Of a stretch of DNA of 50,567 bases, positions 42,713-46,525 are shown piece after piece (position 1 is the stretch's first letter; each line of letters starts with the position of its first letter). The translations under genes and the position numbers were made by a program. A model generated the notes under the pieces. The model was not told where the DNA came from and did no database searches. It saw only the letters and a program-made list of their open reading frames with translations. Source of the DNA: Paramagnetospirillum marisnigri (GTDB lineage: Bacteria; Pseudomonadota; Alphaproteobacteria; Rhodospirillales; Magnetospirillaceae); assembly GCF_001650715.1 (NCBI RefSeq), contig NZ_LWQT01000050.1, forward strand, positions 1-50,567, written 5' to 3'.

Positions 42713-43528
42713 ATGCCCATCTATTATCTGCGCAGGCTGTCCGGCGACAAGCGGACATCCTCGGCCAACAAGCATCTCGGCTATTCCCTGGCCTTCATCG
42801 CCGGGGCGATCAACGCGGGCGGCTTCCTGGCGGTGGACCGCTATACCTCACATATGACCGGCATGGTTTCGTCCATGGCCGACAGCCTGATTCTCGGTCA
42901 TTTGGGCGTGGTGGTGATCTGCCTGGGGTCGTTGGCCGCGTTCGTGGCGGGATCGGCCTATTCTGCCATTCTGATCAACTGGGGACTTCACCACCGCACC
43001 CACAGCAAATATGCCTATCCGCTATTGTGGGAAGCCCTGCTGCTGCTGTGCTTCGGTCTGATGGGCGGCTGGCTGGAACTGCACGAAAGCGGCTTCATTC
43101 CGGTCACCGTGATGCTGCTCTGCTTCATCATGGGGCTGCAGAACGCCATCATCACCAAGATTTCCAATTCGGAAATCCGGACCACCCATATGACAGGCAT
43201 CGTCACTGATATCGGTATCGAATTGGGCAAGGCCTTCTATATCAATTCACAGGCCGAGACCGCCCACTACAAGCCGGTGCGAGCCAACAAGGCGCGACTG
43301 GCGCTGCTGTCTTGCCTGTTGCTCTCATTCTTCTGCGGCGGCGTGATCGGGGCCTTCGGTTTCAACCATATCGGCTATTCCTCGACCATCCCCCTGGCGG
43401 CTTTCCTGGTGGTGCTGGCCATCGTCCCCTTGGTCGACGATGTACGGACCCGGCGCCGGGTATTCCTGCGCCATCGCCTGCAAGACCGCTCCAGACGCCT
43501 CAGAAGGCCGCCGGCAGACGCAGAGTGA
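42713..43528 (+). CDS. DUF1275 (YoaK family) membrane protein
   Basis: This 271-residue inner-membrane protein has about six hydrophobic helices and the family motifs [25 protein letters not shown] (near the start), [17 protein letters not shown] and [14 protein letters not shown]. Function is unknown. The ATG at 42713 has no strong Shine-Dalgarno; the longer frame upstream runs into a repeat. The 3' end overlaps the convergent histidine kinase gene by 29 bp. Confidence 0.9.
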
Positions 43529-44831
43529 AGCGGGCGCCGCCGCCGGGCAGGTTGTCGGCATCCAGGCTGCCGCCATGGTCGCGGGCGATGCCATAGGAAA
43601 TCCACAGCCCCAAGCCCGTGCCCTTGCCAACCGGCTTGGTGGTGAAGAAGGGGTCGAACACCTTGGTCAGGATGTCCTCGGCGATGCCGGGGCCATTATC
43701 TTCCACCGTCAGCACCGCCTCGCCCTTGTCCATGTGGCCCTGGACCGAGATGCGGCCGCCACTGATTCCGGCCACCGCGTCCAGGGCGTTTTCCACCAGA
43801 TTGACGATGACCTGGTGCAATTGCCCGGCATTGCCGCGAATGGGCAGTGGCGCGGAGAGATCCACGCCCACCGCGGCGCTGCCCCGGCTGCCCGATGACG
43901 ACCATTGCACCGCCTTGGCCGCGACTTCCGACAGATTGAAGCTTTCCGGCCCGCCCGCGCTGGAAAAGGACAGGCGTTTCAGGCTGCGCACGATATCGGC
44001 CACCCGCTGGGCGCCCTCGGTGGTGCCGCCGATCAGGGCCGGGAGGTCGGCCAGGGTATTGTCGATGCGCAGTTCCTGGCGCAGGCGCTGGCGCAACTCG
44101 TCGGAGCAGCCGCCGTGGATGGCGTCGAGATAGGCGCCGATGCGCTCGGAATACTTGGCCAGGGCGTGGACATTGCCGTAGACGAAGCTGATGGGGTTGT
44201 TGAGCTCGTGGGCGACACCCGCGATCAGGCGTCCCAGCGAGGCCATCTTCTCCTGCTGCACCAGTTGCGCCTGGGCGGTCTTCAGCGCCTCGTAGGCGCG
44301 GCGCAACTCGCCCACCGGCCGCCCGGTCAGCACGATCCCGGCGGGCAGGCCGCGATGGTCGAGGCGGGTGGCGCAGTTGAGCGCCACCGGCTCGGTCTGG
44401 CCGCCATCGGCGGAGCGGAAGCGGACCTCGCGCTCGAGGCCGGGCTGGGCATCGATCCAGCTATAGAGGCGCAACTCGCCGGTGGTTTCGGCCAGCAGCT
44501 CGTCCAGCGGCCGTTCGAACAGGTCGACCTCGGCATGGCCGGTCAGGCGCAGGAAGGCGAGATTGACCTGGAGGATATGGCCGCGCTGGTCGCAGACGAT
44601 CAGGATGTCGGACACCGCCGACAGCACCGAATTGATGAAACGCTGGGCCTCCTCCAGGGCGGTGTTCTTTTCCTCCAGTTCCACCTCGTACTGGATCAGG
44701 TCGGAATAGACCTCCTCCATCTTGCGGATGACCTCGATCCAGGCGGTCTCCTGGGCGGTGGCGGCATCGGGTTCGGCGGCTCCGGCGAAGTCATAGGCGG
44801 ACGAGGGGCGGGGATCGGCATAGGTGGCCAT
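43500..44831 (-). CDS. PAS histidine kinase, partner of the sigma54 regulator
   Basis: This 443-residue cytosolic sensor kinase has a coiled-coil start (about 25-65), a PAS domain (about 68-185) and a linker with [33 protein letters not shown], the DctB/NtrB-like H-box (His about 210). HATPase motifs follow: [28 protein letters not shown] and GTGLGLWIS. It lacks membrane segments. The ATG at 44831 is next to a MITE, and the only upstream sequence that resembles a ribosome-binding site (GGGAGGG) is on the far side of the element. An in-frame ATG at 44849 inside the MITE end is an alternative. Confidence 0.88.
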
Positions 44832-44833
44832 CT

Positions 44834-45103
44834 TAGGGCGTAAACCCATAAATGGCGTGGTCGCGACACTGGCGATTTTTGCTTCCGGACAGGCGCCCGG
44901 CCTTCCGTGGACTGGCGGTCCACCAGGGGCGGGCAACGCAGCCGGGGGCCAAAATCGCCGTGTCCGTTCCGGCTGCGGACAAAATGGTGGACTGGTGCGT
45001 CGAAACGCTCGTCCATAGCCCCACTATGCTCATCGCGTTTCTCCTGCCATTCCGCCATTTTCTCCAGCAGCGCGTCTAGCGCCATTTATGGGTTTATGCC
45101 CTA
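44834..45103. mobile_element. 266-bp MITE with 22-bp inverted ends and TA duplication
   Basis: The ends GGGCGTAAACCC... (44836-44857) and ...GGGTTTATGCCC (45080-45101) are inverted repeats of 22 bp with one mismatch, and TA flanks each end (44834-44835 and 45102-45103), as expected of IS630/Tc1-mariner-type insertion. An internal inverted repeat (44865-44880 and 44949-44964, around GGCGATTTT) is also present. It carries no transposase. It has inserted in the stop codon/start codon junction of the two-component gene pair and is likely mobilised by a transposase encoded elsewhere. Confidence 0.88.
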
Positions 45104-46525
45104 GCCCTCCCGTTCCAATCCATAGCGCCGCAGCTTGGCCCGCAAGCCGACGCGCGACAGGCCGGTTTCCTCGGCCACCCGGGTGATATTGCCATGATGG
45201 CGGCCAAGCGCCTCGGCCAGGATGCGGGCTTCCAACGCTTCCACCTGATCCTTCAGGCTGCCCGGGCGGCCGGGGCCGCAAATGGCGCCCTGGCGCCTGA
45301 GGCGCGGGCTGATCAGGTCGGGGCCGAGGCGCTTGCCATCGGCCAGGGCGGCCATGCGCTGAATCTCGTTTTGCAGCTCGCGGACATTGCCGGGCCAGTC
45401 ATGGACCGCCAGCAGCTCCAGCGCCTCGGGGGCGAAGGCCAGGTCGGGCCGGGCGAAGCCCTTGCGGGTTTCCGCCAGCAACCGCTCCGCCAGCAGCGGA
45501 ATATCCATGGGCCGTTCGCGCAGCGGCGGCAAATGGATGGGAAAGGCGGCCAGCCGGTAGAACAGGTCGCGGCGGAAGTGTTTTTCCCGCACATCCTCTT
45601 CCAGGTTGCGGTTGGTGGCCGCGATGACGCGCACATCGACCCTGCGGGTCAGGCGGGCACCCAGGGGGCGGATTTCGCCCTCCTGCAACACGCGCAGCAG
45701 CTTGACCTGGAAGGCGGGTGAGGTTTCTCCGATCTCGTCCAGGAAGATGGTGCCGCCATTGGCCTGTTCGAACAGGCCGATGCGGTCCTCATAGGCGCCG
45801 GTGAAGGCGCCCTTCTTGCAGCCGAACAGTTCCGATTCCAGCAACTGGTCGGGCAGGGCGCCGCAGTTCTCCACCACAAAGGGCTTGTTGCCGCGCGGGC
45901 TGGAATAATGGATGGCGCGGGCCAGCAGTTCCTTGCCGGTGCCGGACTCGCCGGTGATCAGCACCGAGATGTCGAAACCCGACGCCCGCCGCGCCATGTG
46001 GATGGCCTCGGCCAGCGGCGAATTGGCGGCATGGGTGATGCCGTCGAAATGGTGGTGGCGCTTCAAGGTGCCGGTCTTGGCGACGATGGCCTTTTCCAGC
46101 ATGGCCGGAGCCACCTTGAGGTCCAGGCTGGCCTGGGCGCTTTCCCGCTGCAGCTGATAGAGCCGAAGGGCGCCGTGCAGGGTCTGGACCAGGGCGTCGG
46201 GTTCCCACGGCTTGGTGATGTACTGGTAGATGCCCGCCTCGTTGACGCCCGCGATGATATCCTCGGCGTCGGAATAGCCCGAAATGATCATGCGCACCGG
46301 ATCGGGCCAGCGGGCGCGAACCGTCTTCAGGAATTCCACGCCCTGGACTCCGGGCATGCGCTGGTCGCACAGGATGGCATGGACCATTTCCTGCTCCAGC
46401 AGTGTCTCGGCTTCCTCGGCGGTGGAGGCGGTCAGGACTTGGAACTCATCCGACAGCACCCGGCGCAGCGCTTCCTGCGACTGCCGTTCGTCGTCCACCA
46501 CCAGGATGATCGGAAGATTGGTCAT
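45101..46525 (-). CDS. NtrC-family sigma54-dependent response regulator
   Basis: This 474-residue regulator has a receiver domain (about 5-120, phospho-acceptor Asp in [10 protein letters not shown] near residue 54). A sigma54 AAA domain follows (about 170-390) with [32 protein letters not shown] and the R-finger region LRERPMDIP. The C-terminal Fis-type helix-turn-helix is [23 protein letters not shown]. It activates sigma54 promoters when phosphorylated by the downstream kinase. The stop is TAG, with TA from the target site and G from the MITE end; the protein sequence is unchanged compared with the inferred TAA before insertion. Confidence 0.96.

Follow-up and report, generated by a model that had tools for sequence, protein, structure and literature searches.

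What lies between the two genes of a sensor pair in Paramagnetospirillum marisnigri, and what does it do to the output of the second gene? The window, meaning the whole 50,567-nt stretch of contig NZ_LWQT01000050.1 analyzed here, carries on its minus strand, where all window features named below lie, a sigma-54 response regulator of 474 aa (45101..46525) and a PAS-type histidine kinase of 443 aa (43500..44831). Between them is a MITE-like element of 266 bp (44836..45101), recognized by direct reading, by the pairing of its ends, and by further copies in the genome. Its terminal inverted repeats (5′, 45080..45101; 3′, 44836..44857) span 22 nt, or 24 nt counting TA, and are 96% complementary; the end motif had 0 matches in 100 shuffles of the window. 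The TA target duplication forms the first two bases of the regulator’s TAG stop on the 5′ side (45102..45103), and on the 3′ side (44834..44835) it combines with 44833 to give TAA. Joining the flanks without the element yields GGGAGGGCTAAGATGGCC, in which a TAA stop, 1 nt, and the kinase ATG follow one another and GGGAGGG (45105..45111, within the regulator’s last codons), presumably the former kinase Shine-Dalgarno (SD) sequence, lies 5 nt ahead of that ATG. With the element in place the regulator’s stop becomes TAG (45103–45101), taking the element’s first base and leaving the protein unchanged, and the kinase ATG (44831) comes directly after the right inverted end. The original prediction had placed a MITE exactly at this stop/start junction, flanked by TA, with both frames kept and the regulator ending in TAG instead of TAA; each of these points can be read from the sequence.

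The own genome contains five further copies of 266–338 bp at 79–94% identity (two on contig C109, one each on C89, C39, and C10), the C39 copy carrying a 72-bp insert, as well as a 50-bp copy on C62 made of the two ends joined. These are the TA-flanked, like-ended copies that the original prediction had expected elsewhere in the genome. Among 16 congeners, regulator and kinase are adjacent and the element is absent in 11 (G001, G004, G005, G007, G009–G013, G015, and G016). The empty site had been expected to read TAAGATG, and here the prediction stood only in part: none of these junctions, which come from congeners and not from strains of the same species, has that reading, and most are TGATG overlaps. 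At the G006 junction about 1.2 kb of other sequence separates regulator and kinase, G014 has the pair split between contigs, and searches of G002, G003, and G008 yielded no regulator/kinase junction. Because 11 of 16 congeners lack the element at this junction and the own genome holds further copies, we identify the spacer as a non-autonomous transposable element, a MITE: it is short and without a transposase gene, has terminal inverted repeats and a target duplication, occurs in multiple copies, and has empty sites. A search of plasmids for copies of the window element or of G002b found none. Two side observations concern these loci. The ~1.2 kb in G006 (L043) holds an apparent opposite-strand gene, judged by eye. 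Contigs C62 (1–126, L059) and C89 (1–342, L055) start with a common flank, followed by the 50-bp end-to-end copy in one and a full copy in the other, which reflects either a repeat at contig ends or loss of the arms at one site.

The identity of the two flanking genes gives the insertion its context. The regulator has the receiver, sigma-54, and Fis domains of a HupR/HoxA response regulator. Among receiver-only chains of solved structures, its receiver is closest to HupR1 (PDB 2jk1, 4.4e-40), and the next such chain from another protein matches at 2.7e-15. Two plasmid-borne relatives of the kinase, at about 50% identity (2 of 37 records looked at), have hydrogenase genes nearby; a Bradyrhizobium relative lies after hypBF-hypCDE and directly downstream of a sigma-54 regulator, and an Azospirillum relative lies upstream of hydrogenase genes. 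Given the HupR1-like receiver and the hydrogenase genes near kinase relatives, we call the pair HupR/HoxA- and HupT/HoxJ-like, and the element sits between the genes of what is, judged by these similarities, a hydrogenase-type sensor pair.

The fold of the element was derived from an alignment of twelve 266-bp copies, those with inserts or truncation being left out. The consensus consists of a terminal stem and two hairpins, arm A (alignment columns 31–130; 44972..45071 in the window) and arm B (columns 138–237; 44865..44964). Compensatory changes on both sides are found at 27 of the 102 pairs, and 97.1% of cells are paired vs. 90.1% in shuffles, none of 500 reaching the observed value. Slid controls leave 38–43% of cells paired, a comparison biased toward the structure, since it was derived from the same sequences. 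Folded singly, the window copy has a z of −8.6 and G002b one of −11.0. Eight of 102 pairs are broken in the window copy, vs. 1–3 in the four others of its end type (9 in G002d), so that this copy may be decaying. On the arm A strand, G-U cells outnumber A-C cells by 115 to 32 in the best 59 rows for arm A, and the counts are 15 and 31 in the remaining 24, made up of antisense and arm B matches; for A1 they are 20 vs. 9 pair positions. The G-U excess fits selection as RNA, with the qualification that the structure was drawn for that same strand. When the window junction and six relatives were compared with Rfam, every listed match was far below its gathering score.

The distribution of the family was surveyed with a covariance model (R1) built on columns 28–130 of arm A, whose short calibration makes for rough E-values. 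Counting the own genome in each set, it had matches in 8 of 17 genomes from the genus, in 71 of 297 from the order (E 1e-4), and in 12 of 289 sampled across the class (1e-6). Of 40 top-listed order matches, 36 passed the inverted-end score. Twenty-six of these 36 are 262–266 bp long; the remaining copies measure 183 (two), 250, 269, 271, 309–314 (four, with an extra hairpin), and 366 bp, and the boundaries of a few (L178, L195, and L205) are uncertain. End sequences vary between groups while size and arms persist, and a three-way fold kept near 266 bp under such differing ends is a structural puzzle in itself. The arm A model also hits arm B, on the opposite strand, in several relatives (L191, 54.6 bits; L198, 54.1 bits; also G405 and G574), and on the evidence of these relatives the element resembles an old inverted dimer with halves of ~133 nt. 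For the window copy itself, the half-to-half alignment does not exceed shuffles (z 1.0), and the dimer can no longer be detected there. Five copies (L057, L181, L183, L188, and L177) exceed 266 bp by 72, 48, 45, 45, and 43 bp, four of the five values being multiples of three; L181 and L188 are without the ATG motif described below. The f4 inserts may be of one origin.

Copies with a visible right end have TAR directly after the element in 17 of 17 cases and TA ahead of it in 14, which points to YTAR as the target, with duplication of TA. Such sites are few in the own GC-rich genome (310 in 450 kb, 106–109 of them within called coding sequence). For a source of transposase, the IS5 family NF033580 was searched in 17 genomes, and a scan for inverted ends flanked by TA was run on the 30 resulting loci. 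Four loci (L235, L248, L237, and L238) scored 10 and have ends in or near the MITE end classes; the remaining 26, some of them cut by contig ends, did not exceed 8 under this simple scoring. All four are IS5-type elements of congeners, 838–854 bp long with TA on both sides. The left end of L235 is GGGCGTAAACTCATAAA, its right end being similar, not identical, and the domains that this element encodes, DUF4096 and DDE_Tnp_1, lie in a pair of overlapping frames. The ends read GGCCGTAAACTCATAAAC in L248 and GGGTCAGGAC-CAT in L237 and in L238, which is interrupted and has stop codons in its transposase region. The arrangement from which an IS5-derived MITE is recognized, a DUF4096/DDE_Tnp_1 transposase between similar inverted repeats with TA duplication, is found in congeners only. 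In the own draft assembly there are four NF033580 matches, partial or interrupted, and no intact IS5 partner with such ends; Pfam DDE_Tnp_1_2 found nothing in that genome, in which the broader NF033580 did match. The original prediction had named an IS630-type partner. In this comparison of ends, which covered IS5-type loci, that attribution finds no support: the similar ends belong to the IS5-type elements of congeners, and the own genome has one partial DDE_3 match, on contig C86. An IS5-type transposase most likely mobilized the family, judging from these shared ends. Transposase-like ORFs beside one matching end (L080) were also considered as a partner and set aside: they are of a degraded IS5 type, in two frames and below the family cut-off, and the four loci above are better partners.

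Insertion into a stop codon recurs in the genus. Our count covers every genus copy that retains arm A in whole or in part, 22 in all (17 copies plus G015:C211, G001:C16, two in G005, and one in G008), and in 11 of them a stop is rebuilt from TA and the element’s first G, every one of the genes concerned having Pfam domains. The 5′ end lies within the stop of a same-direction gene, rebuilt as TAG, in 10 copies (window, C10, G014, G002a–e, G003b, and L125). In L129 the 3′ end rebuilds the stop of an opposite-strand gene, and L125 (G005:C214) does both. The C89 copy, with 76 bp of flank, permits no call, and G003c, G003d, and G008 are cut or decayed; all are among the 22. Eight other upstream proteins are a TylF-type protein, a gamma-glutamyltranspeptidase, a zincin, an SbcC Walker B protein, SoxY, a PEP mutase, a pyridine oxidoreductase, and a histidine kinase; the domain ends at most 5 residues from the stop in four of the eight and 19–73 residues before it in the others. 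As background, 36–41 of the 310 YTAR sites in 450 kb of the own genome (12–13%) are stops on either strand, over four settings of a simple gene caller, and among non-coding YTAR sites the share is 18–20%. Against these backgrounds the P values for 11 of 22 are 1e-5 to 4e-5 (all sites) and 0.0006–0.002 (non-coding sites), with the caveat that 16 of the 22 copies are in species other than that of the background and that their stop criterion does not come from the same caller.

Orientation is less clear-cut. The sense stop arrangement occurs in 7 of the 36 order copies, six of them Pfam-supported, and of 10 antisense 3′-end candidates six are Pfam-supported (L176, L202, L211, L186, L125, and L129). 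Overall there are 16 sense and 6 antisense Pfam-supported stop genes (two-sided P 0.05), and the orientation bias over all copies is marginal. The nine window-type and G002/G003 stop copies are sense throughout. A strong bias, at one stage 15 sense to 3 antisense, was given up when the remaining candidates and four more genus copies were included.

The effect of the insertion on the kinase can be predicted from its start region. The kinase had been said to be cut off from its ribosome-binding site, and the predictions agree: GGGAGGG is now 266 nt off, and the strongest anti-SD pairing predicted ahead of the kinase ATG changes from −10.8 kcal/mol in the joined flanks to −3.1 with the element (random positions: mean −3.06, sd 2.65). 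The 11 congener kinase starts range from −3.5 to −10.3, with weak values in G005 (−3.5), G004 (−4.6), and G011 (−4.8), so a poor SD may suffice for this gene. A hairpin just before the kinase ATG is likewise upheld by predicted pairing around that ATG. Mean predicted unpaired probability is 0.17 at the kinase start with the element, 0.28 at the joined junction, and 0.35 in a stretch inside the element where an SD-like AGGAG in arm A (columns 57–61; 45041..45045) precedes an ATG (column 69). Predicted anti-SD pairing at this ATG is −7.4, and from it a frame of 66 codons (44833..45033) runs to the duplicated TAA, which a single nucleotide separates from the kinase ATG. An in-frame ATG is indeed present at 44849, but a predicted pairing of only +0.4 lends no support to its earlier proposal as a new start. 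Of 30 copies with the motif, 28 keep the column-69 frame open; a second frame is equally open, and we therefore do not count this as support. AGGAG with ATG is missing from 17 of 47 full-size copies. No selection on the mini-frame peptide was seen (dN/dS ~1.1 in the ATG frame), and the idea of a protein-coding element was rejected on this ratio, on a lack of codon-position bias, and on finding no Pfam match above cut-off in four ORFs within the element. A tblastn search of plasmids with two element frames gave one weak Azotobacter match (E 0.03) for one and nothing for the other, and a search of the element for a promoter found no sigma-70-like site. Most likely, by these predictions, the insertion removes the kinase SD and leaves the two cistrons separated by a strong block of double-stranded RNA; that the kinase is thereby uncoupled from the regulator is plausible.

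We think it likely that a MITE, probably IS5-mobilized, inserted in the regulator’s TAA stop, rebuilding the stops and altering kinase output. The TA of the YTAR target would have been that of the regulator’s own TAA stop. With G as its first base, the element would restore the upstream stop as TAG, and the duplicated TA would leave the original TAA ahead of the kinase; both proteins remain whole, which would explain how such insertions persist. Once transcribed, the 266 nt would form a long terminal stem and two hairpin arms, a structure that could block the former termination-reinitiation coupling and offer RNase III-type double-stranded targets. With the kinase’s SD presumably removed as well, kinase output per regulator would fall or come under separate control. 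A smaller part may be played by ribosomes that enter at the element’s AGGAG-ATG and stop at TAAG-ATG, which would restore some kinase translation. A far bolder extension, which we regard as improbable, would make the family order-wide mobile two-armed RNA elements landing in stop codons, whose first purine rebuilds the upstream stop, whose duplicated TAR keeps the original stop by the downstream start, and whose built-in ribosome entry feeds that start, a ready-made replacement for translational coupling. The locus shows a mobile element entering the tight space between translationally coupled genes with neither protein broken. The family provides naturally occurring insertions that separate operon partners (HupR/HupT-like, SoxY and the next gene, SbcC-like/JetD), and with the empty relatives of the window junction for comparison, their effects on dosage and polarity can be measured directly.

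Other accounts explain parts of the same evidence. The element may be a neutral survivor that landed at one of few harmless YTAR sites and has no selected effect, the kinase being made by weak initiation or reinitiation. The rarity of YTAR sites, the intact kinase ORF, and the fact that no other copy of its end type has as many broken pairs as the window copy all suit this account, which we hold to be a serious possibility, somewhat short of an even chance; the over-representation of stop codons even against non-coding YTAR sites and the large predicted SD loss argue against it. We consider it unlikely that the element is a co-opted device for RNA processing or stability, like Correia or ERIC, whose junction position was selected and sets different doses of the partner proteins. 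The conserved fold, the G-U excess on the arm A strand, the sense majority among stop-codon genes, and the nature of the operon partners affected, including SoxY with its next gene and SbcC-like/JetD, would be in keeping with such a role. However, the orientation bias is marginal, the G-U and A-C cells were counted on a structure drawn for one strand and the excess is reversed in the other rows, orientation is a weak concept where arm B is related to arm A in inverted form, and the families in which RNA processing has been demonstrated are other ones. A non-mobile spacer, whether a plain long intergenic region or a regulatory RNA of the operon, could have the strong fold and would suit the lack of any second copy identical to that in the window, but the five like-ended, TA-flanked copies and the 11 empty congener junctions refute it, and we give it virtually no credence.

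MITEs are a known kind of element, and several repeat systems resemble the one in the window by description. Chunjie of Geobacter uraniireducens is a 235-bp MITE in an operon, inserted, according to the title of its paper, without disturbing operon structure (PMC10969869); the likeness to the window element, in another organism, is that of a MITE in an operon, by description only. The Correia element (CREE/NEMIS) of Neisseria is, in the portions of the sources available to us, a TA-flanked MITE with 24-bp terminal inverted repeats whose transcript hairpins are cut by RNase III (PMC10969869, PMC2229807). It thus shares TA flanks and inverted repeats with the window element but comes in 107- and 155-bp species, compared with 266 bp and two inner arms here. 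From the available text of PMC2229807, ERIC/RU-1 of enterobacteria also has TA at its ends, is co-transcribed, and has an orientation-dependent effect on upstream mRNA; it is 127 bp long with a 7-bp inverted repeat, and we liken it by description, not by sequence. The same portion describes CIR of Caulobacter and Brucella, with an RNA model of two long hairpin arms and TA termini. CIR is alphaproteobacterial and two-armed like our element, but is ~110 bp long, lacks terminal inverted repeats, and carries GANTC; the window copy has no GANTC and has a terminal stem, and so is not a CIR. The portions of PMC10969869, PMC2229807, and PMC2759123 available to us hold no description of the family, and we found none in literature searched by title and abstract start, a scope outside which most subscription journals lie; within it, the two-armed architecture and the stop-codon habit were not found described.

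Several individual copies merit mention. L186 (G102:C8) and L125 lie between converging genes, both of whose stops are rebuilt by the element’s two ends. L116 (G002:C23, near 2380–2436) is a 57-bp copy of the two ends only, and an opposite-strand ORF there ends in a TAG formed with the element’s last base. In G003a (L111) and C39 (L101), an opposite-strand ATG inside the inverted repeat opens into the adjoining long ORF, and the element may there have supplied a new start to its neighbor. L107 (G002:C11:94400–99600, sense 2471–2743) lies between the SbcC Walker-B and JetD_C proteins, in what we take from its appearance to be a Wadjet-type defense operon, with the next ATG 3 nt past the TAG. 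L108 (G002:C17, sense 2515–2790) follows directly after SoxY, and the next ATG, 4 nt past the TAA, begins a protein that, as we take it, starts like SoxZ.
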